Assembly: GCF_900103285.1 (NCBI RefSeq)
Contig: NZ_FNGS01000004.1
Location: 650,097 to 714,096 of the forward strand
Direction of reading: 5' to 3'
Source of the DNA: Siphonobacter aquaeclarae
GTDB lineage: Bacteria; Bacteroidota; Bacteroidia; Cytophagales; Spirosomataceae
Length of the DNA stretch: 64,000 bases
Within the stretch, counting starts at the first letter, position 1; each line of letters starts with the position of its first letter. The translations under genes were made by a program, and so were the position numbers. This document shows positions 44,217-54,554 of this stretch, piece after piece. A model generated the notes under the pieces. It saw only the letters and a program-made list of their open reading frames with translations. It searched no databases and was not told the origin of the DNA.

Positions 44217-47200
44217 TTAGAATGTGATGTCTATGCCGAAGTTGTATACCTTCTGAATCGGGTACCAATCGCCCGAGCCTTCCTTGGTTTCCGGATCGAT
44301 ATCGACGCTTTTGAGTTTGTCCCACGTGAGCAGGTTCATCCCCTGGGCATAGAGGCGGACCGACTGGAGTCCCGAAAACCGGAGCATCCGTTTCGGAATG
44401 TTGTACCCGAGCTCGATGGTTTTCAGGCGCAGGTAGCTGGCATCATAGAGAAAGAGGCTGCTGTTGACGTTTTTGTTGTTGGTATGCTCGCCATAATGAA
44501 GGGCGGGATACTTGGCCGTCGCCGCGGTTGCAGGCGTCCAGCGATCGAGGTGCATGGGCTTGACCTTGCCATACTTATCCTGCGAAAACAGCGGAAAATC
44601 CCACACGGCAGCTCCTGTCAGCTGCACGCTCGTCATCGTCGCTCCCTGAAGTAACATACTGAAATCGAACCCTTTGAAGCGCATACCTACCGGAATACCG
44701 AACATCAGCTGCGGATTGCGGGGATTACCGAGGTTTTTCCGGTCTCCGAGATCCGTGATTACGCCGTCTCCGTTCAGGTCCTTGTACACCACATCACCGG
44801 GCCCCAGACGTCCCCAGGGCTGAAAACCGGCGCCATTGTTCCGGGCATTCAGTTCGCTGGCTTCCTGCTGATCGCGGACGAAGTGGTCGACAACATAATC
44901 AAAGTGCTCATTGATCCGCTTGCCGGTTTGTCCGCGCCACGCCGCCTTGTACGGAATTTCATTCATGAAGATGATTTTGTTCCGGGCGAAGGTCAGGTTC
45001 GGGCGGATGTAGTAGGAAAAGCTGTTTCCGACGTTTCCGGACCAGCCTACTTCAAAGTCGATTCCCCGGTTATCCACAATACCCGAGTTGAGGTAAGGGG
45101 CATTTTTTCCGACGATGGTCGGGAAGCCGAGCTTGTCGCCGCCTCCCATATCTGTAATAATATCAAACCGGTGTTCGTGGAAAACATCTACAGAGATCGT
45201 CAGGTGTTTCAACAGCGTCGCGTCGATCCCGATGTTGGCTTTCCGGGCTTTTTCCCAGGTCAGGTTGATGTTGGCGAGGTCGCCTTCTTTCAGGCCTCCG
45301 CCGGCGCCAGATCCGAAATTGTCCGTCCCGAAGCTGTAGTCATCCCCGCCACCGAAGTACTGGAGGTAGATAAAGCGTTTGTCGTTGGGAATTTTGTCGC
45401 TTCCAACCAATCCGTATGACCCCCTGATTTTCAGGTTATCCAGCCACGACGCAGTACCCGACAGAAAGTTTTCCCGCGATAGTACCCATCCCGCCGACAC
45501 CGCCGGAAAGAAGCCGTAGCGCTTGCCCTTGGCGAAGTTCTCCGACCCGTTATAGGCAGCATTGATTTCGAAGAGGTAGCGGTCGTCGTACGCATACGTC
45601 ATCCGGCTCGTTACGCCCTGATAGGAAAAAGGTACCTGGTTGTTAATAATACGTTTCGACCGGTTGGCGAGGATCATCCCCGTAACGTCGTGGCGGCCGA
45701 ATTTGCGCATGTAATCAAGCTTCACCTGGAAGTACGACCGCCCGTCGGCATTGTTCCGGGACGAGCTATTTCCGATCGGCTGATCCGTATCGTACTTGTT
45801 TCCGCGCTTGTACTTGCCCTGGTAATGGCCGGGAGTGCGGTACACGTCGCTGCCGTCTTCGGGCACGACGGTCGCATAGCCGGGGTATTCCCGGTAGCCT
45901 TCCGAATAGGTCCCTACGTTCCGGTTGACCCAGATACCGTCGGAAGCGTCATACGAAAACAGCCCTTCGATCTTCAACCCGCGGGTGACGAAATCGAGGT
46001 GGTGCCCCAGCGCAAACGATCCGTTGAGATAGGTATTCTTTTCGTTGAGGAAACCCGTCCGGCTCAGCTCACCGAGGATATTGAAGCGGTAAATCTGATC
46101 CCCGTACAACATACCCAGGGGGTTATTGGCTTCGAATACCTGGTTGGCGGGGTTGTTGTTCGATTCAACAATGATCGGCAGGTACGAAGGCTGGGTATTC
46201 GCCATCTCGACGATGCGGTTGGCCGTCGTTCCCGGCGCGTTCCGGTCCGTAATCCGGGCGCCGATATCCAGGCGCGCGTAGAAATCCTTCGTAATATCAA
46301 TGTCGATATTCGAACGGAAGTTGTAACGTTTGAATACTGCCTGGGTATTGTACGCCGCCAGGTTGGTATGCCGGTAGTTTCCGTCCTGCTGGAAGAAATT
46401 GGCCAGTACAAAGTAGCGGGCGCGGGTCGAACCACCGTTGATGGAAAGGCTGTAATCCTTCTGCACGCCGGGTTTGAAGGCATAATCGAAGTAGTTCCAG
46501 TTGTAGCCCAGGCCGTCGGAGTTATCGCCTTTCGCTTTCCGGAAGGATTCGATGGCCTGTTCCGAAAACAGGTTCAGGTTAGCCGGATCGACGCCCGGGC
46601 TGTCGTTTTTCCGGGCTTCGTTGTACAGCATCGCATAGTCTCCCGAGCCAAGGTAGGTCGGAAACTTGACCGGCTGATTCACCCCGATCGACGCTTTAAA
46701 GTTCACCGTCGCCTTGTCCTGGATTTTGCCCCGGCGCGTGGTAATGAGAATAACGCCGTTGGCCCCGCGAACGCCGTACGGAGCAGTGGCAGAGGCATCT
46801 TTCAGGATGGAAAACGTCTCGATTTCGGACGGAGCCAGGTAGTCCATGCTCCGTTCCAGCCCGTCGATGATGACGATGGGCGACGTATTTCCGTACGTAC
46901 CCATTCCCCGGATGAGAATGTCGCTCCGGTCTACCCCGGGCTCGCCGCCGCTGAACTGGTTGGCCATCAACCCCGGAAGGCGGCCGGCCAGCGCGTTGGT
47001 CAGGTTGGCGGTCGGGCTTTGTTTGAGGTCTTCGGTGGTAATGGTGGCGAGAGATCCGGTGACTGTGGCTTTCCGCTGGGTACCGAACCCGACAACAACG
47101 ACTTCATTCAACCCGGCCATTTCCTCGTCCAGGTCGATGATGTAGGATGATCGGGCGTCCACCGCAACTTCTTTCGGAATGTAGCCGATGTGCGAAAAAA

Positions 47201-47795
47201 TCAGCGTTTCGCCGGTATTTGCATTGATCGAAAAGCGTCCCTGGGCATTCGTGACGACGCCCCGGTCGGTACCTTTCACCTTCACCGTCGCGCCGGGTAA
47301 TACGCCGCTTCCTTTGGCATCCTGCACCAGACCGGTAATCTCGCGGGCCGTTGGGGTAATCCGCACGCCGGGCCAGAAATAAAGCACCGCCGGCGGTATC
47401 ATGGTGGTAAGCGTCTTCTTTTCTTCGTTCCGGTAAATCGCAATTTGCCGGCCGATGATCTGGTAAGAATACTCCGTCCCGCGGAAGGCGCGGTGAAGAA
47501 TCGTCGGAATAGTTTCGTTTTTCAGGGTAAGGGTGAGATGCTTTTTTTCTCCGGAGAACAGGTTGTCTTTGTAGAAGACGTGGTAGTCAGACCGTTCCTC
47601 TATCTGCCTGAGCAGGGTACTGAAGGTTTCGTCCTTGATCTGTACATCCATCCGGTTCTTTTGAGAATATCCTTCTGCATGGACGATCATCAACCCCAGC
47701 CAGCTCAGGAATACCGTCAGCTTCATAATTCTCAATAGTTTCTTCGGGTAAGCCCCCCGGAAAGGGACATACCGGGTCATGTCAAATTTTTTCAT
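44217..47795 (-). CDS. SusC/RagA TonB-linked transporter with STN domain (locus 3)
   Basis: 1192 residues, longer than the other three SusCs because of an extra N-terminal secretin/TonB short domain (STN, about 48-122; VQIKDETFSTLLRQIEERSD). Next come a carboxypeptidase-D-like domain (GLVQDAKGSGVLPGATVKVK), a plug with SPIVIIDGLERS and PYGVRGANGVILITTRRGK, and a barrel ending NFGIDITF. An STN domain marks transducers that signal substrate occupancy to a FecR-type anti-sigma factor; the FecR gene lies directly upstream on the same strand. Confidence 0.95.
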   Translation of the reverse strand: MKKFDMTRYVPFRGAYPKKLLRIMKLTVFLSWLGLMIVHAEGYSQKNRMDVQIKDETFSTLLRQIEERSDYHVFYKDNLFSGEKKHLTLTLKNETIPTILHRAFRGTEYSYQIIGRQIAIYRNEEKKTLTTMIPPAVLYFWPGVRITPTAREITGLVQDAKGSGVLPGATVKVKGTDRGVVTNAQGRFSINANTGETLIFSHIGYIPKEVAVDARSSYIIDLDEEMAGLNEVVVVGFGTQRKATVTGSLATITTEDLKQSPTANLTNALAGRLPGLMANQFSGGEPGVDRSDILIRGMGTYGNTSPIVIIDGLERSMDYLAPSEIETFSILKDASATAPYGVRGANGVILITTRRGKIQDKATVNFKASIGVNQPVKFPTYLGSGDYAMLYNEARKNDSPGVDPANLNLFSEQAIESFRKAKGDNSDGLGYNWNYFDYAFKPGVQKDYSLSINGGSTRARYFVLANFFQQDGNYRHTNLAAYNTQAVFKRYNFRSNIDIDITKDFYARLDIGARITDRNAPGTTANRIVEMANTQPSYLPIIVESNNNPANQVFEANNPLGMLYGDQIYRFNILGELSRTGFLNEKNTYLNGSFALGHHLDFVTRGLKIEGLFSYDASDGIWVNRNVGTYSEGYREYPGYATVVPEDGSDVYRTPGHYQGKYKRGNKYDTDQPIGNSSSRNNADGRSYFQVKLDYMRKFGRHDVTGMILANRSKRIINNQVPFSYQGVTSRMTYAYDDRYLFEINAAYNGSENFAKGKRYGFFPAVSAGWVLSRENFLSGTASWLDNLKIRGSYGLVGSDKIPNDKRFIYLQYFGGGDDYSFGTDNFGSGAGGGLKEGDLANINLTWEKARKANIGIDATLLKHLTISVDVFHEHRFDIITDMGGGDKLGFPTIVGKNAPYLNSGIVDNRGIDFEVGWSGNVGNSFSYYIRPNLTFARNKIIFMNEIPYKAAWRGQTGKRINEHFDYVVDHFVRDQQEASELNARNNGAGFQPWGRLGPGDVVYKDLNGDGVITDLGDRKNLGNPRNPQLMFGIPVGMRFKGFDFSMLLQGATMTSVQLTGAAVWDFPLFSQDKYGKVKPMHLDRWTPATAATAKYPALHYGEHTNNKNVNSSLFLYDASYLRLKTIELGYNIPKRMLRFSGLQSVRLYAQGMNLLTWDKLKSVDIDPETKEGSGDWYPIQKVYNFGIDITF

Positions 47796-47831
47796 AAATT
47801 TGATTTCCTTGTGTTGAATGATTTGTGGATA

Positions 47832-47890
47832 GCACCTGCCGACCCGCAGGTGCGGTTAGTAAACGGAAGACGTTGGCGCGTCTTCCGTTT
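47832..47890. terminator. Two hairpins between fecR-like gene and SusC locus 3
   Basis: AAACGGAAGACG (47861-47872) pairs perfectly with CGTCTTCCGTTT (47879-47890), and GCACCTGC (47832-47839) with GCAGGTGC (47846-47853). On the minus strand the first follows the FecR stop by 5 bp but is trailed by only a short T-run, so it may be a partial terminator or attenuator before SusC. Confidence 0.65.
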
Positions 47891-47895
47891 TTTGT

Positions 47896-49068
47896 TTAGC
47901 GGTCAAGTTTTTCGAATACGACCCTCCTTCCTTTAAGGTGATAGACAAGTCCGGTAGTAGAACATAGGGCAGAAAAAACGTGGGTTGGATCGTCCTGTAA
48001 GTCGAGTTTCCCGGTGAAACGCTCCTGCGCGATCTCTTCGTCCGGCAGGATCAGTTCCATTTTGTAATAGCGGGACAATTTCTTGACAATCTCCCGGAGA
48101 GGGGCCTTTCGCACAGCGAGGAAGCCCTCTCTCCAGGAAACGTACTCGACTACATCTATTTTCGAGAGTTGGATAGACGATTGATGGTATTGGGCCTTCA
48201 TCCCGGGTACGAGCTGCACCTTGCGGGAGCTCCCTTCCGGAGCCAGTTCGATGCTTCCCTTCGTCAATACAGCATAGCTTTCCTGATCGTCGCTGTAGGA
48301 GGAAATATCAAATTCTGTCCCCAATACCCTGGTTTTCAGGTCTCGGGTATGGACCCAAAAGGGGTGGTCGGCATCGTGGGATACCGAGAAATAGGCTTCA
48401 CCTTCGAGGAATACCTCCCGGGAGTCGCCCGTGAAACGCGCCGGGTATACCAGCCGCGAGCCGGAGTTCAGCCAGATACGCGTGCTGTCAGACAGCGTGA
48501 GCGTCGCCCGCTTGCCATACGGTACCACAAGCGTATTGAAAGCTTCCGTTTCCTCCCGGATCACCGAAAGCGAATCAATCCGGATGCCTTCCCTGCCATA
48601 GTATACGTCACTGTTCTTCTTTTCCAGGAGGACCGTCTTCCGGCTGTTCAGGATCAGCTGCGTAGCATCCCCCGCGGGTTGCGCCAACCGGGCGATCTCT
48701 TCCATTTTTTTCCGGGTGCCGTCGCCCCTGAAATAGAAATACGCCGCCCCCACCGGCAGCGCCAGCAGGGCCATTACCGCAGCTATCCTGCGCCAGCCAA
48801 GGCGGCGAACGGGTTTCTCTTCCGTTTCCGCCAGAATCCGCTGCCCGAGCAGTTCTTTTTCTTCCGGGGATAGCGAAGCTTCCGTCAGCGAGCGAAACAG
48901 GCGCTGCAGGTTTTCGGCTGTTTTATGTTCTTCCGGTTCGTCCGGGGATAGCTCTTCGGTAGTCACAGTATGGCTTTTTTTCCAAAGAGAGACGACCTTG
49001 CCGCATATAGACTTTTCCTGAGAAATATTTTCAAAAAAAGAAGACCTACCCCATCCGATGGTATGCAT
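47896..49068 (-). CDS. FecR family anti-sigma factor
   Basis: 390 residues from ATG 49068; the first ~34 residues are unusual and a GTG at 48966 is an alternative start. A cytoplasmic N-terminal region, one membrane helix (about 94-111; IAAVMALLALPVGAAYFYF), a periplasmic FecR domain (VVPYGKRATLTLSDSTRIWL, about 178-197) and a C-terminal DUF4974 domain (REIVKKLSRYYKMELILPDE) are in the standard order. It would hold the ECF sigma factor until SusC3's STN domain signals. The sigma gene is divergent across 233 bp rather than immediately upstream on the same strand. Confidence 0.93.
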   Translation of the reverse strand: MHTIGWGRSSFFENISQEKSICGKVVSLWKKSHTVTTEELSPDEPEEHKTAENLQRLFRSLTEASLSPEEKELLGQRILAETEEKPVRRLGWRRIAAVMALLALPVGAAYFYFRGDGTRKKMEEIARLAQPAGDATQLILNSRKTVLLEKKNSDVYYGREGIRIDSLSVIREETEAFNTLVVPYGKRATLTLSDSTRIWLNSGSRLVYPARFTGDSREVFLEGEAYFSVSHDADHPFWVHTRDLKTRVLGTEFDISSYSDDQESYAVLTKGSIELAPEGSSRKVQLVPGMKAQYHQSSIQLSKIDVVEYVSWREGFLAVRKAPLREIVKKLSRYYKMELILPDEEIAQERFTGKLDLQDDPTHVFSALCSTTGLVYHLKGRRVVFEKLDR

Positions 49069-49301
49069 GTACTAATTACTATTCCTTCCAAAATACACCT
49101 AACCAACTATCAATCAGACAATTAAGAAGACACCCATAGCCTTCCTCCGGCCGGCGCACCCGCACGCTGAAGGATAATTACCGGGAGACAACTATATTCG
49201 TCGCCTGACTAACCCCTTCGGGCCTGTTCATCCGGGATGCTCAGCCTTTCCGGAAATAACCGGAGCCCGGCAACGTAACCGGAAAACCTAAACTGCTTCT
49301 T
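49069..49301. promoter_or_regulatory. Divergent promoter region between FecR and ECF sigma genes
   Basis: 233 bp separating the anti-sigma and sigma genes. It should contain promoters for both directions, possibly one used by the ECF sigma itself. No TAnnTTTG element is convincing by eye. Confidence 0.45.
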
Positions 49302-49892
49302 ATGGACGTACAGGCAGAAACTGAGCTGTGGACGGAATTTCTTTCCGGAAACCGGACGGCATTCAGTCAGCTGTATGACCGGTATGCCGACGTCCTCTTT
49401 TCCTTTGGTCTCCGGTACTCGTCCGACCGGGATTTGGTCAAAGACTGTATTCACGACCTGTTTATCGACCTCCACCATTACCGGGCCGGTCTGGCGCGGG
49501 AGGTTAACATCCGTTTTTACCTGCTCAAATCCCTGCGCCGGAAACTCGAACAGGCCCACCGGAAGTCGGCGCTGTTCCGCCATGAAACCTGGGAAAATGA
49601 ATCAGTACTGGCGATTTCCCCGTTTTCGTTCAGCATAGAGGACGAAATCATCACCGACGAAAGCCAGAAGGAACTGCTGCAATTGCTGGCCGAGGAAGTC
49701 AACCGCCTGCCCGAGCGCCAGCGGGAAATCCTGTACCTCCGTTTCCGGCACGACTTCGATTACGAACAGATCGCGTCCCTCATGCAGATATCTGTTCCGA
49801 CCTGCCGGACCTTTATCTACCGGGCACTCAAGCAACTCCGCGGAAAGCTGGAGCTGCTGACCCTTCTTTTCCTGCTCTTTCTTGTTGAGTAA
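49302..49892 (+). CDS. ECF-type RNA polymerase sigma factor (FecI-like)
   Basis: 196 residues. Region 2 (FSQLYDRYADVLFSFGLRYS, DLVKDCIHDLFIDLHHYR) and region 4 (RLPERQREILYLRFRHDFDY, EQIASLMQISVPTCRTFIYR) are clear. After region 4 the protein ends in an apolar tail (LELLTLLFLLFLVE), common in Bacteroidota SusCD-linked sigma factors. It probably directs transcription of the divergent FecR-SusC-SusD genes. Confidence 0.93.
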   Translation: MDVQAETELWTEFLSGNRTAFSQLYDRYADVLFSFGLRYSSDRDLVKDCIHDLFIDLHHYRAGLAREVNIRFYLLKSLRRKLEQAHRKSALFRHETWENESVLAISPFSFSIEDEIITDESQKELLQLLAEEVNRLPERQREILYLRFRHDFDYEQIASLMQISVPTCRTFIYRALKQLRGKLELLTLLFLLFLVE

Positions 49893-49951
49893 CCAAGCCG
49901 CAGAGGCCATTTTTTCGTTGATATACGGTGAGTAACGCTATGCTGTTCGCC

Positions 49952-50434
49952 ATGTTGAAACGATTGTTCATTCTTCTGCTGATGGGGGCGCTCCCTCATC
50001 TTGTTCATGCCCAGGCCGACTACAAAACGGCCATCGGTGTCCGCCTCGGAGCTTCCAACGGCTTGTCTGTCAAAGGATTTTTATCCAATAAAAACGCGCT
50101 GGAAGGGATTCTGACCACGCGCTGGCGGGGCATCGGCCTTACCGGCCTGTATGAGGTCCACGGAAATGCCTTTCAAACCCGGTCCTTTAACTGGTATGTT
50201 GGGGGCGGTGCACACATCTATACCTGGCGGGAAGGGAAAGTACCCCCGCCGTGGTGGGACGGCCGCGATCGGCGGACCATCGCCGGGCTCGACGGAATCC
50301 TCGGTCTGGAATACACCATTCCTTCCGCTCCGCTTAATTTTTCAATCGATTGGAAACCGGCCATTAACATCGTCAACTACGAAGGTTTCTGGGGAGATGA
50401 GTTCGCTTTTTCGATTCGTTTCGCGATTAAATGA
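49952..50434 (+). CDS. Small outer-membrane beta-barrel-like protein
   Basis: 160 residues from ATG 49952 (MLKRLFILLLMGALPHLVHA), giving a clean signal peptide; GTG 49928 and ATG 49940 are in-frame alternatives. Alternating polar and aromatic strands (TAIGVRLGASNGLSVKGFL, FNWYVGGGAHIYTW) and a C-terminus of FAFSIRFAIK suggest an eight-stranded barrel. Function unknown. It follows the ECF sigma gene by 59 bp on the same strand. Confidence 0.75.
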   Translation: MLKRLFILLLMGALPHLVHAQADYKTAIGVRLGASNGLSVKGFLSNKNALEGILTTRWRGIGLTGLYEVHGNAFQTRSFNWYVGGGAHIYTWREGKVPPPWWDGRDRRTIAGLDGILGLEYTIPSAPLNFSIDWKPAINIVNYEGFWGDEFAFSIRFAIK

Positions 50435-50474
50435 GAGTATTTTGATCGAAAAGTGATATTCCCCGTCGTTTTTG

Positions 50475-50507
50475 TTTGATTTCTTCGGGAATATCTTTCT
50501 ACTTTTG
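50475..50507 (+). promoter_or_regulatory. Promoter of the MATE leader transcript
   Basis: A TTTG at 50475-50478 (-33-like) and TACTTTTG at 50500-50507 (-7, TAnnTTTG) are separated by 21 nt, close to the Bacteroidota primary-sigma layout. The leader ATG lies 20 nt downstream. Confidence 0.6.
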
Positions 50508-50527
50508 TCACAACATCGGATCATTCC

Positions 50528-50620
50528 ATGAAAATGCCCGTCTTCAATATCGACTTTACCGCTGTTCCGGTTCTCGCCGGGAACACGAGTCGGGCATGGA
50601 TGCATCATCCTCTCTTGTAA
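50528..50620 (+). CDS. 30-residue leader peptide of a predicted attenuator before the MATE gene
   Basis: ATG 50528 to TAA 50618-50620 encodes a 30-residue peptide beginning MKMPVFNIDF and ending MHHPLL. It lies between a clear promoter and an intrinsic terminator, with the transporter gene after the terminator. Its coding RNA contains segment 1 (ATGCCCG, 50534-50540) and segment 2 (AGTCGGGCAT, 50588-50597), which pair with each other; segment 2 can instead pair with the terminator's 5' arm. This is the organisation of a translation-controlled transcription attenuator. Function is inferred. Confidence 0.65.
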   Translation: MKMPVFNIDFTAVPVLAGNTSRAWMHHPLL

Positions 50621-50641
50621 GAACTTACCTGTTCATACCTG

Positions 50642-50670
50642 AGCCCGGCTTCTCCAAGCCGGGCTTTTTT
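50642..50670 (+). terminator. Attenuator terminator upstream of the MATE gene
   Basis: AGCCCGGCTT (50642-50651) pairs perfectly with AAGCCGGGCT (50656-50665), loop CTCC, then a T-run to 50670. It lies 28 bp before the MATE start and 21 bp after the leader peptide stop, so it can act only on the leader/MATE transcript. Its 5' arm (50643-50650) is complementary over 8 bp, one G-U pair included, to 50588-50595 in the leader ORF. Confidence 0.85.
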
Positions 50671-50697
50671 ATTTTCTGTCCATACATACTTATACCC

Positions 50698-52083
50698 ATG
50701 AAAAAGTACTTCGACCTGCTGATTCAAGCCTTGAAAGGGGAAGAGAACAATTTTACAACGGGAAGTCTCAACCGTGCGATTTTCCTGCTGGCGGTACCGA
50801 TGGTACTGGAAATGCTGATGGAATCGCTGTTTGCCGTTGCCGACGTGTTTTTCGTCGCCAAGGTCGGTATCGAGGCTGTCGCCACCGTTGGGATGACTGA
50901 ATCCGTTCTGACCCTTATTTATTCAATAGCCATCGGCCTGGGCACGGCCGCTACCGCCATGGTTTCGCGGCGGATTGGCGAAGATGACCCTGCGGCCGCC
51001 AGCCGTACCGCCGCACAGGTAGTCCTGATGTCGCTGGGTATTGCCGTGACCGTCGCACTTCCCGGCGTACTGTTTCCTGATTCCATCCTCCGGCTGATGG
51101 GCGGGAGCCCGGAGCTGGTTGAGCACGGCTCGACCTTTACCCGGCTGATGTTTGCCAGTTCACCGGTCATTATTCTCCTGTATACGCTCAGCGGTATTCT
51201 GCGCGGGGGCGGCAACGCGTCTGTCGCCATGCGCTCGCTGTGGATCGCCAATGGCGTCAATATCCTGCTGGACCCCCTGTTTATCTTCGGATTATCCTTT
51301 ATTCCGGCGTTTGGGGTGACGGGCGCAGCCATTGCCACCTCGACAGGCCGCCTGATGGGCGTGCTGTATCAGTTTCGGTCGCTGACCAACGGAAGCGCCG
51401 CTGTCCGCCTGGAGCGGGCCTATTTCGTGCCGGACTGGGCCGCTATCCGGAAACTGATCGAGATTGCCTCCGGCGGGACGTTCCAGTTCCTGATCGCTTC
51501 GGCGTCCTGGATTTTCCTGACACGGATTTTGTCGACCTTCGGACCGGACGTTGTAGCCGGCTATACCATCGCCATCCGGGTAATTGTCTTTACGATATTA
51601 CCGTCGTGGGGAATGGCAAATGCCGCCGCGACGCTCGTCGGGCAAAACCTCGGCGCCGAGCTACCGGAAAGGGCCGAAACGTCCGTCTGGCGGGCGTCCC
51701 TGCTCAATATGATTTTCCTAGGCTCGGTCGGCCTCCTGTTTTTTTTCTTCTCCGGGACGATCATAGGCTGGTTCAACGATACACCGGCAGTGGTGCAAAC
51801 GGGCGTTACCTGCCTGCGCATCATTTGCATCGGATACGTTTTCTTCGCTTATGGTATGGTCATCAGTCAGGCCCTGAACGGTGCCGGCGACACGCGCACG
51901 CCGACCATCATCAACCTGATCTGCTTCTGGGCAGTCGAGATTCCGCTGGCCTATCTGTTGGCCCACTCCCTCCGTTTAGGGCCTACCGGCGTCTTTATCT
52001 CCGTCGCCTTCAGCGAATCACTCCTGGCCATTATCGCCATCCTGGTGTTTCGCCGCGGTAAGTGGAAGCTTGTAAAAGTCTGA
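50698..52083 (+). CDS. MATE family efflux transporter
   Basis: 461 residues from ATG 50698 (MKKYFDLLIQALKGEENNFT); longer in-frame readings from 50476 run through the terminator and are spurious. Twelve hydrophobic helices in two related halves; the first half contains RAIFLLAVPMVLEMLMESLF and VFFVAKVGIEAVATVGMTES, typical of the MATE/MatE fold (NorM/DinF-like). It exports cationic drugs or metabolites in exchange for Na+ or H+. Expression is probably gated by the leader/terminator just upstream. Confidence 0.93.
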   Translation: MKKYFDLLIQALKGEENNFTTGSLNRAIFLLAVPMVLEMLMESLFAVADVFFVAKVGIEAVATVGMTESVLTLIYSIAIGLGTAATAMVSRRIGEDDPAAASRTAAQVVLMSLGIAVTVALPGVLFPDSILRLMGGSPELVEHGSTFTRLMFASSPVIILLYTLSGILRGGGNASVAMRSLWIANGVNILLDPLFIFGLSFIPAFGVTGAAIATSTGRLMGVLYQFRSLTNGSAAVRLERAYFVPDWAAIRKLIEIASGGTFQFLIASASWIFLTRILSTFGPDVVAGYTIAIRVIVFTILPSWGMANAAATLVGQNLGAELPERAETSVWRASLLNMIFLGSVGLLFFFFSGTIIGWFNDTPAVVQTGVTCLRIICIGYVFFAYGMVISQALNGAGDTRTPTIINLICFWAVEIPLAYLLAHSLRLGPTGVFISVAFSESLLAIIAILVFRRGKWKLVKV

Positions 52084-52089
52084 GTCCAT

Positions 52090-52115
52090 CCGGGAACCAT
52101 CCGACGGGTTCCCGG
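52090..52115. repeat. Hairpin between MATE and pirin genes
   Basis: CCGGGAACC (52090-52098) pairs with GGTTCCCGG (52107-52115). No T-run follows, so it may not terminate; the pirin gene starts 21 bp later and is probably co-transcribed with the MATE gene. Confidence 0.55.
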
Positions 52116-52136
52116 CTTCCCTCAAAAAGAATCATT

Positions 52137-52982
52137 ATGGCGCTATTACCCATTCGCCGGATCATCCGGCCACAGGGCAGGCCGCTGGGCCCCCTGACGA
52201 TGTACCAGCCGCTGCCGGAAAACGGGCTCGATCAGATCGATCCGTTCCTGCTGCTGCACCATCACGGACCGCAGACCTTTCCGGCTCATAATACCGGCCT
52301 GCCGTTCGGCCCTCACCCTCATCGCGGGTTTGAAACAGTGACATTTATTTACGAGGGCGATGTGCAGCACCGAGACAGCAACGGATACGAAAGTACCATC
52401 CGAGGCGGCGGCGTTCAGTGGATGACCGCCGGCAGCGGCCTCGTCCACTCCGAAACCTCCTCAGCCGATTTCCGGCGGGACGGCGGCCCGGTTGAGCTCA
52501 TCCAGCTCTGGATCAACCTGCCCGCCCGGCTGAAAATGACACCGCCGGACTACCGGGGTCTTCAGGAGGACGATATTCCGGTCGCAGCGGAAGGCGGCGC
52601 CTCGCTCGCTGTCGTCTCCGGTACCTGGAGCGGCGTGGCAGGGCCGGTTGCCTCCTCCACCGAACTCGCGACGCTCACACTGGCTCCCGCAGGTGGATAC
52701 ACGCGGGAAATTCCCGCCGGAAAATCAATCCTGTTTTATGTCCTGAACGGCTCCGCTACGGTCAACGGGCAAGCCGTTCAGGGCCGCGCACTGGTGGTTT
52801 TCGGGGAAGAAAGCGGTACTATCGAGGTCCGATCCGACTCCGGTTGCCGCATCCTCTGGGGAATTGCCGATCCGATCCGCGAGCCGGTAGTGGCCCACGG
52901 GCCCTTCGTCATGAATACCGGCGACGAAATCAGGCAGGCCATTGCCGACTACCAGAGCGGTAAAATGGGTTTTCTGGAATAA
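52137..52982 (+). CDS. Pirin family protein
   Basis: 281 residues from ATG 52137 (MALLPIRRIIRPQGRPLGPL). The N-terminal cupin carries the pirin motif GPHPHRGFETVTFIYEGDVQ with candidate metal ligands (the two His of HPHR, His of QHRDS and the following acidic residue) and GGGVQWMTAGSGLVHSE; a second cupin (Pirin_C) follows. Some pirins have quercetin 2,3-dioxygenase activity or act as redox-linked regulators; the substrate here is unknown. It ends directly before a bidirectional terminator. Confidence 0.92.
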   Translation: MALLPIRRIIRPQGRPLGPLTMYQPLPENGLDQIDPFLLLHHHGPQTFPAHNTGLPFGPHPHRGFETVTFIYEGDVQHRDSNGYESTIRGGGVQWMTAGSGLVHSETSSADFRRDGGPVELIQLWINLPARLKMTPPDYRGLQEDDIPVAAEGGASLAVVSGTWSGVAGPVASSTELATLTLAPAGGYTREIPAGKSILFYVLNGSATVNGQAVQGRALVVFGEESGTIEVRSDSGCRILWGIADPIREPVVAHGPFVMNTGDEIRQAIADYQSGKMGFLE

Positions 52983-53012
52983 AAAAATCCCGCCGGTACC
53001 GGCGGGATTTTT
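52983..53012. terminator. Bidirectional terminator between pirin and SusD locus 4
   Basis: A perfect 30-bp palindrome (AAAAATCCCGCCGG and its complement, centre GGTACC) with A- and T-runs at its ends. It serves both convergent genes. Confidence 0.88.
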
Positions 53013-53030
53013 CTTTCCTGGCAGGCGATA

Positions 53031-54554
53031 TTACTTCAGAATCCACATGGTCTGGTTGTAGTCGTCGTTGCCCGAAAACTGCGATTTGATCGCGTTGTTG
53101 ACGTTTTCGGTATTGTAATCCAGCTCTTTCTGGGGATAAATCCAGCGAACGGGGAATTTGTCGGCCGGTACGTTCAGGTTCGACTTCGGGTTCAGCGGGA
53201 AGGCCGGGTACCCCGTCCGACGATTCTCGAAAAACGCATCGTACGGCGCATGCAGCATGAACGTACTCAGGTACCGCTGGGAGATAATCTGCTCCAGCTG
53301 CGTTTCCAGGCCACCGGCCGTTTTGAGCTTTACCTTATCGGAAGCGATATACGACTCGATGTAGTCGTTTGTCAGCTTGCGGTTGTGGTGAAACAATACA
53401 TTGTCAGGAGTATAGCCGGCTGTAAACTTCATGCTGGCCCGGATCCCTTCGGAGTAGTGGTCGGCCGCTGAGCCGGAGATCCATCCCCGCACTACTCCTT
53501 CTGCCAGCATAAACTTCGCCATGGCATAGCTGAGCACGTATACCGGCTCCGCGTTGGCAAGCTCCAGGTAGCGGCTGTTGACGTTGGAGTAGTCTTTTCC
53601 TCCGAAAATCACCGACAGGTCGGCATATACCATCGACGGATCATAGCCCGCATAGGCGTCCCACGCGCTTACTTCCTTGCCCGCTGCCACACGGATCGCG
53701 GACGGGTTGGCATAGTAAAACAGCCGGTAGTCGTTGAGGTCTTTCAGGCGGTCAACCACCACGGTCGTCATCATCGTATACAGCTGAGTAGTATTCCCGA
53801 GCTTGTAGAACGGGTAGCGCTGGCCGGCCAGATCGGAGTAAACGAGCTGGAAATTATCGTCATTACTCTGGAAAATCGGCTTTTCGGCAACGATAGCCGC
53901 GAAGCGTTCCTTCACCCGAAGGTCCGCTTCCCCGGTCTTCTTATACAAATGCAGGAGTACCTGTAATTCGAAGGTATTGACGAATTTCCGCCACTTCGTA
54001 ATATCTCCGCCATAGATCGGGTCTCCGTCAAATTTGGCACCGGCAGCGAAGAGCTTGTCGGCTTCTTCCAGTTCTTTCAGAATATCCGTCATTACTTCCT
54101 TCTGGGACGTGTACGCAGGATTCAGCGTACCTTTTTCGCCCAGGAGCGCCTGCGTGTACGGAACGTCTCCTACCTGCATCGACAGCCAGAAAAACTTGTA
54201 CGCCCGGATGAACTTCCCGAGAGCCGTGTACGAGTTCTTATAGGTGCCTTCGGGTGAAAGCGCGACCATTTTTTCGACGTTGTTCAAAACCGTCAGCCCG
54301 TCAAAACTCGCCCGCCCGAGGTAGTTGTACTGGGCATTTTCCGGGAATTCCATCCGGATGATGGACTTTCCGTTCATCATCGAAGAGATACTTCCCAGCG
54401 AGTTTTTCGAGATATCGAGGATCAGCGTGGTCGCCAGCATCGGCGCCGACGCCTTGGTAGCGGCGTTGGGGTTCGTGTTGATGTCGTCGAACTTGGAGCA
54501 ACTCCCCAAAGACAGACCCGTCAGCCCCAGTACGATATATTTTTTCCAGTTCAT
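53031..54554 (-). CDS. SusD/RagB family nutrient-binding lipoprotein (locus 4)
   Basis: 507 residues, lipoprotein signal MNWKKYIVLGLTGLSLGSC (Cys19) then SKFDDINTNPNAATKASAPM, the SusD_like (N-x-x-P-N) opening. Helical repeats follow and the protein ends DDYNQTMWILK. It resembles the locus 2 SusD more than those of loci 1 and 3. It is encoded 27 bp after its SusC partner. Confidence 0.93.
   Translation of the reverse strand: MNWKKYIVLGLTGLSLGSCSKFDDINTNPNAATKASAPMLATTLILDISKNSLGSISSMMNGKSIIRMEFPENAQYNYLGRASFDGLTVLNNVEKMVALSPEGTYKNSYTALGKFIRAYKFFWLSMQVGDVPYTQALLGEKGTLNPAYTSQKEVMTDILKELEEADKLFAAGAKFDGDPIYGGDITKWRKFVNTFELQVLLHLYKKTGEADLRVKERFAAIVAEKPIFQSNDDNFQLVYSDLAGQRYPFYKLGNTTQLYTMMTTVVVDRLKDLNDYRLFYYANPSAIRVAAGKEVSAWDAYAGYDPSMVYADLSVIFGGKDYSNVNSRYLELANAEPVYVLSYAMAKFMLAEGVVRGWISGSAADHYSEGIRASMKFTAGYTPDNVLFHHNRKLTNDYIESYIASDKVKLKTAGGLETQLEQIISQRYLSTFMLHAPYDAFFENRRTGYPAFPLNPKSNLNVPADKFPVRWIYPQKELDYNTENVNNAIKSQFSGNDDYNQTMWILK

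Follow-up and report, generated by a model that had tools for sequence, protein, structure and literature searches.

A putative ribosome-sensing attenuator before a MATE efflux gene of Siphonobacter aquaeclarae, and short upstream open reading frames in related leaders

This study examined a window of 64,000 nt of Siphonobacter aquaeclarae (GCF_900103285.1, NZ_FNGS01000004.1, positions 650,097 to 714,096, forward strand), that is, the whole stretch of DNA that was analysed. We lean towards the view that the leader of a MATE efflux gene in this window is a ribosome-sensing attenuator, in which a held ribosome would allow RNA polymerase to read on into the pump gene. Comparison of upstream DNA showed that a short putative upstream open reading frame (uORF) in the same slot is a recurrent feature of the MATE leaders of the family, and such frames also occur in other families of the order Cytophagales. 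We regard the window as most probably a diverged representative, its ORF longer and its terminator canonical, of an order-wide and putatively uORF-controlled MATE leader.

If true, these findings would describe a uORF-controlled MATE pump in Bacteroidota that recurs in several families, and an unusually small sensor, with three-codon uORFs (MKA, MKS, MKV and MKL, each followed by a stop codon) in some leaders. They would open the question of how little coding sequence suffices for sensing ribosome trouble, and of which compounds turn on the intrinsic drug efflux of environmental Bacteroidota. Ribosomes of the Bacteroidia fail to recognise Shine-Dalgarno sequences, according to the accessible text of PMC9976891.

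The leader in the window and its predicted folds

Read along the window, a promoter-like site, a leader ORF, a terminator-like hairpin and the MATE gene follow one another in this order (Table 1). The promoter, 30-codon ORF, terminator with T-run and MATE start that the earlier note had placed here were all found at their coordinates by direct reading, the stem measuring 11 bp. The TTTG-N21-TAnnTTTG site is a putative promoter of the Bacteroidota type. The leader ATG lies 20 nt behind TAnnTTTG, the leader is 190 nt long, and the MATE ATG at 50698 sits 28 bp past 50670, at a promoter-to-gene distance of 198 nt. No further TAnnTTTG site was found in the window sequence between the hairpin and the MATE gene, so transcripts from the promoter-like site have to cross the hairpin. 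The MATE frame is open upstream over 50476-50698, and an in-frame ATG at 50596 would add a 34-residue N-terminal extension running through the terminator, which is probably a chance feature; we did not adopt 50596 as the MATE start, since an ATG is present at the position aligned to 50698 in 29 of 29 family loci.

Table 1. Features of the MATE leader and the adjoining genes (positions in the window)
Feature	Position	Strand	Details
Promoter-like site, TAnnTTTG type	50475-50507	+	TTTG 50475-50478, 21 nt, TACTTTTG 50500-50507
Leader ORF, 30 codons + TAA	50528-50620	+	ATG 50528, stop 50618-50620, peptide MKMPVFNIDFTAVPVLAGNTSRAWMHHPLL
Segment 1, ATGCCCG	50534-50540	+	Partner CGGGCAT 50591-50597 in predicted fold
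Inner hairpin within 1:2 helix, TGTTCC..GGAACA	50563-50585	+	Predicted fold
Segment 2	50587-50597	+	Partner segment 1, or terminator 5' arm over 8-9 bp
Weak 4-bp hairpin GTAA-GAAC-TTAC, leader stop codon in 5' arm	50617-50628	+	
Intrinsic-terminator-like hairpin + T tract	50641-50675	+	GAGCCCGGCTT-CTCC-AAGCCGGGCTT 50641-50666, then TTTTATTTT
MATE efflux transporter gene, 461 aa	50698-52083	+	TIGR00797 E 7.8e-73; PF01554 E 6.7e-60
Pirin gene	52137-52982		PF02678/PF05726

The leader (50508-50675) folded 5.4 sd better than dinucleotide shuffles (z -5.4). The terminator-like hairpin, with a stem of -19.6 kcal/mol, was longer than any other terminator-like site in 48000-54000; the two strands together had 13 such sites, where shuffles led us to expect 7.7. 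The 37-nt stretch around the weak stop-codon hairpin folded no better than shuffles (z -0.7).

The pairing of segment 1 with 50591-50597 that had been claimed for this leader was present in the predicted fold, and 50588-50595 can form the claimed 8-bp helix with the 5' arm of the terminator, with one G-T pair, or 9 bp with a flanking G-T. Among 1000 shuffled leaders, 72 formed a helix of 8 bp or more with this arm, and 24 combined such a helix with an upstream competitor of 7 bp or more that overlapped it. The pairings in the window are real and mildly unusual, and by themselves they are not compelling.

We modelled stalling by folding the leader with a ribosome footprint at nine codon positions. 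The results revealed that, before the terminator 3' arm exists, segment 2 paired with the 5' arm in six of the nine stall states (codons 1, 4, 7, 10, 13, and 30). Once the 3' arm was present, the terminator pairing was full in eight states and partial in the remaining state (codon 21), and the antiterminator survived 3' arm synthesis in none of the nine modelled states; because it yields to the finished terminator in all of them, it could work only kinetically. Of the attenuator with 1:2, 2:3, and 3:4 pairings that the earlier note had proposed, the leader ORF, the terminator-like hairpin and the pairings are thus present, whereas the predicted antiterminator loses to the finished terminator, and the exact scheme is weakly supported for this leader. 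Trp-type attenuators combine a leader ORF, competing 1:2, 2:3, and 3:4 stems and a terminator. The window shares a leader ORF, competing stems and a terminator with them, but its leader peptide contains no run of codons for one amino acid, unlike amino-acid biosynthesis attenuators, its leader is not conserved, and its antiterminator is weaker than its terminator.

Short uORFs upstream of related MATE genes

Within the window's family, 152 of 222 genomes had an orthologue of the MATE protein (E ≤1e-100; the window's own genome included), and an order-wide sample of 391 genomes contained it in 205 (E ≤1e-120; the window's family included). The five other genomes of the genus (G001-G005) contained no orthologue and just paralogues at 23-27%, and a close comparison of leaders was therefore impossible. 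The closest named relatives were those of Spirosoma, with 65-67% identity, and the window MATE fell inside the family clade of a 42-row tree on a long branch that leaves its position unsure. Among 72,556 plasmid records, 521 matched the MATE protein, none at ≥60% identity.

The conservation of the leader peptide, proposed earlier as a check, was not borne out: the 30-codon peptide had no match among 145 MATE upstream regions, and the leader DNA gave one 12-base match there. When the leader DNA was searched against the 222 genomes, with three first-look candidates scored per genome, 28 genomes, the window's own included, had a match at E ≤0.01. Approximately 30 of the 35 places outside the window overlapped the terminator hairpin or the T tract, and the core of the window terminator resembles short sequences elsewhere in the genomes of the family.

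Upstream DNA was then compared by slot. The family sample comprised 109 MATE loci from 108 of the 151 other MATE-bearing genomes, and the 85 loci with a TAnnTTTG-like site 140-300 nt before MATE were kept. The 24 loci left out belonged to g30 (12), g23 (3), g3, g21, and g24 (2 each), and g4, g16, and g34 (1 each), and among them is L155, whose anchor had landed on an adjacent MATE copy. Of the 85 promoter-bearing leaders, 76 had a first ATG that came within 75 nt and opened an ORF of at most 12 codons, compared with 14.4 leaders expected from dinucleotide shuffles. Such an ORF followed a promoter of this kind in 9 of 29 non-MATE genes of the window and the fetched loci (Fisher p 4e-9, kinship ignored). 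A TAnnTTTG-like site stood 17-23 or 31-42 nt before the first ATG in 68 of the 76 short-uORF leaders, and at least six of the 76 (L118, L119, L121, L135, L179, and L185) have a first ATG other than the aligned one. The promoter-to-ATG and promoter-to-gene distances of the window were within the range of its relatives.

Exactly five codons made up 31 of the 76 uORFs, for example MKFLA, MKFLG, MIFLA, MIFFL, MKLTC, MILSC, and MIVLA, and 56 of the 76 peptides were distinct. The stop was TAA in 62 uORFs, TAG in 8 and TGA in 6 (49, 28, and 23% in shuffles). The peptides vary, while the start, the stop and, in many genera, a hairpin persist. The leader ORF of the earlier note therefore has counterparts in position, since the same slot is occupied in most relatives having the promoter, though not in length, since the ORFs there are mostly of 3-12 codons.

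In g30, 12 of 13 leaders (L089-L095, L098, L099, L101, L102, and L107) were without the promoter and the aligned uORF, both of which have apparently been lost. The g30 leader L185 retains a form of the uORF, MKALATPC, with its stop in a hairpin followed by TTTTCTCC. Peptides ending in R/K-X-R/K were found in 4 of the 76 family leaders, that of L118 not being the aligned ORF, and in two f11 leaders; the residues before the stop were ARVR in L152, VRIR in L166 and L170, ARIK in L252, and ARIR in L255. These endings resemble the macrolide-arrest motif (+X+) quoted in the accessible text of PMC10314930. A reading as macrolide arrest was considered and left aside, the codons sitting, by eye, in hairpin arms.

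For the other families of the order, 40 upstream regions were fetched, of which 3 were left out because the start was not found. An MK-starting ORF of 3-8 codons at -220 to -50 occurred in 14 of the 37 remaining leaders (1.4 expected), and besides the four three-codon peptides named above, the examples include MKLR, MKLMA, and MKLAF; MKLVF was present in three Cyclobacteriaceae loci. ORFs of 3-8 codons with any second codon were found in 25 of the 37, a small excess over the 17.6 expected. Most of these leaders were without a strict TAnnTTTG site. Two of the leaders, L226 and L227, also have, by eye, a hairpin and T tract.

The hairpin at the uORF stop in Spirosoma-like genera

The Spirosoma-like set comprised 38 leaders (30 of g33, 2 of g11, 4 of g10, and 2 of g29). 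In these leaders, the uORF stop codon stands at a hairpin foot, with a C/T-rich tract following, and the invariant or near-invariant columns outside the promoter include CC-ATGA and the AA of the stop. The arms of this hairpin co-vary (AAGACC/GGTCTT, AAAACC/GGTTTT). For six pairs, named by hand and then counted in the same sequences that gave the structure, 84.6% of cells were paired, compared with 36-65% when the partner was slid by one to three columns, and two-sided changes occurred in 26 cells compared with 11.2 in shuffles; the pairs with a two-sided change (3 vs 2.8 shuffled) and the further pair types (9 vs 6.7) were at most slightly more frequent than in shuffles. Of the five measures of covariation applied to this hairpin, two were thus near the shuffled level. 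RNAalifold returned no hairpin at the uORF stop on alignments A1 and A4. Around the stop, 64 of the 76 short-uORF leaders folded better than the shuffle mean and 26 were in the best 5%, and in several g9 and g22 leaders the stop lay in or at a hairpin loop.

We then searched genomes with R1, a sequence model of the uORF and hairpin built from the 38 leaders, 30 of them in the genus searched. With 150 first-look candidates scored per genome, R1 gave one strong match (E ≤2.5e-8) per genome in 34 of 36 Spirosoma-like genomes, 30 of which had supplied training sequences (the untrained ones being G184, G190, G204, and G208). The strong matches lay 99-179 nt outside the MATE match, or 389 nt in G184, where the MATE match is N-terminally incomplete. 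The two missed genomes were 84% and 80% complete, and three more matches were weak (E 0.005-0.1). These findings suggest that, within the candidates scored, the uORF-hairpin element is single-copy and MATE-specific in the Spirosoma-like genus. A structured model, R2, had no convincing match in the window (best E 0.89).

Some leaders of this set depart from the pattern. In L113 (and L004), ATA replaces the uORF start, and the close relative L112 keeps ATG; the pair L113/L112 is a natural test case for the uORF start. The Spirosoma-like leader L111 has lost the stop of its short uORF. At columns 215-231 of alignment A1, shortly before the MATE start, a further hairpin has five pairs, each with some two-sided changes.

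These comparisons bear on a rival account, in which the window hairpin is a constitutive partial terminator that lowers basal expression of the pump, the ORF is incidental and nothing is sensed. The poor conservation of the window ORF and leader DNA agrees with such an account, as do the set of pairings recurring in 24 of 1000 shuffles and the prevailing of the terminator in the modelled stall states. However, relatives have the same-slot uORF much more often than chance would give, and the stop hairpin of the Spirosoma-like genera is preserved through two-sided changes; we consider a purely constitutive role unlikely.

Proposed mechanism, comparable systems and alternatives

In the attenuator proposed here, RNA polymerase would as a rule terminate at the hairpin (50641-50675). 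The leader uORF would be translated, and ribosome-targeting drugs or other translation stress would be the signal. A ribosome held on the leader ORF of the window would cause RNA polymerase to read through into the MATE gene, presumably because 50588-50595 would pair transiently with the 5' arm of the terminator. Given a leader ORF, a terminator-like hairpin and the short uORF that relatives have in this slot, a ribosome slowed on the leader, as by an antibiotic, would probably turn the pump on. Because the window stop lies 21 nt before the hairpin, a ribosome there should not cover the hairpin directly, and either a pairing switch or Rho would have to come into play. Among the relatives with short uORFs, a held ribosome would more likely cover the stop-codon hairpin directly, or shield the C/T-rich tract from Rho. 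Because a ribosome at almost any codon of such a uORF would reach the stop hairpin, no particular nascent peptide would be needed.

A broader history may be sketched, although we hold it tentatively and incline slightly against it: throughout Cytophagales, ancient start-stop uORFs of 3-12 codons would serve as general ribosome-stress sensors for one MATE pump, and the window lineage would have turned this arrangement into a canonical terminator attenuator. In many genera, the stop of this order-wide class would stand at the foot of a hairpin or in its loop. The uORFs being this short, what is sensed would be the residence of the ribosome and not the nascent peptide, in bacteria whose ribosomes do without Shine-Dalgarno pairing.

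Ribosome sensing by the MATE leader is inferred by analogy with MsrDL and toiL. According to the accessible text of PMC10314930, MsrDL, the leader of the mefA/msrD operon, encodes MYLIFM followed by UAA, and erythromycin holds ribosomes at this UAA, where they obstruct a terminator. MsrDL, as described in this text, is like the relatives analysed here in having a tiny uORF with a terminator structure behind it, before a drug-resistance gene, and it ends in UAA; MKFLA, MIFLA, and MLVFILG of the relatives may be set beside its MYLIFM. It differs from the window in that it precedes an ABC-F gene in another phylum and that its terminator and erythromycin stall have been demonstrated (PMC10314930), and the window in turn has a 30-codon ORF with the hairpin beginning 21 nt past the stop. 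A stop near enough for a stalled ribosome to cover the terminator arm, as in MsrDL, was not found in the window.

The toiL uORF of topAI-yjhQ in Escherichia coli senses several classes of ribosome-targeting antibiotics through the RNA fold, as given in the accessible text of PMC12121999. The leader proposed here would likewise rely on a uORF that senses ribosome-targeting antibiotics through RNA folding, but toiL, in the same account, acts on topAI translation and then on Rho termination, and topAI belongs to another gene class. A further comparison is a tetracycline-resistance leader whose uORF has four codons (Wang 2005, cited in the accessible text of PMC12121999). As far as that mention goes, it is similar in having an ultra-short uORF before a resistance gene in Bacteroidota, and it differs in that the gene is one of tetracycline protection, the likeness being one of description and not of fold. 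This leader is reportedly that of tetQ of Bacteroides. The open-access literature, surveyed mainly at the level of abstracts, gave no account of a MATE leader of this kind in Bacteroidota.

Composition brings in a second account, in which Rho-dependent termination or control of MATE translation acts in a toiL-like manner, the uORF sets the fold and the intrinsic terminator came late to the window lineage. After the window ORF, the sequence is C/T-rich and G-poor as in the relatives, with 66% pyrimidine and a C/G skew of 0.37. The genus means after the uORF in relatives were 60-71% pyrimidine and a skew of 0.14-0.42, compared with 52 ± 5% and 0.02 ± 0.16 in 34 control upstream regions, a set that includes the MATE frame itself. 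These C-rich, G-poor tracts favour the second account, and none of the 85 leaders of relatives contained a terminator as strong as that of the window (best -13.7 vs -19.5 kcal/mol; five with nothing scored). Nevertheless, transcripts in the window must get past a strong canonical terminator, and composition cannot prove Rho sites, and we rate this account no higher than the constitutive one.

The earlier note had also named a known riboswitch as an alternative, and Rfam 15 returned no family at the gathering cut-off in the window. At E ≤1, the MATE loci of six relatives and of the window gave only tRNAs above the cut-off, the rest being sub-threshold; three sub-threshold small-RNA matches lay over window positions 50583-50679 (E 0.28-0.66). 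The guanidine-IV (mepA) riboswitch precedes MATE genes. It resembles the leader proposed here in the RNA control of a MATE gene, but the window has no Rfam match above the cut-off. An aptamer or protein-binding RNA in which the ORF is no sensor is the most improbable of the three alternatives: the strong overall structure of the window leader and the further hairpins of the Spirosoma-like leaders, including the one with two-sided changes near the MATE start, would suit it, but Rfam gave nothing except tRNAs above the cut-off, and folds and primary sequence differ widely among genera while the uORF start and stop persist.

Two observations concern the surroundings of the leader and its gene. 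Between the MATE stop and the pirin gene, a 9-bp hairpin at 52090-52115 (-17.5 kcal/mol, z -2.5) has little T tract. Upstream, window positions 44217-49892 encode a large protein that by eye is like a SusC-type transporter, a FecR-domain protein and an ECF sigma factor, and this region looks like an ordinary sigma/anti-sigma uptake locus.
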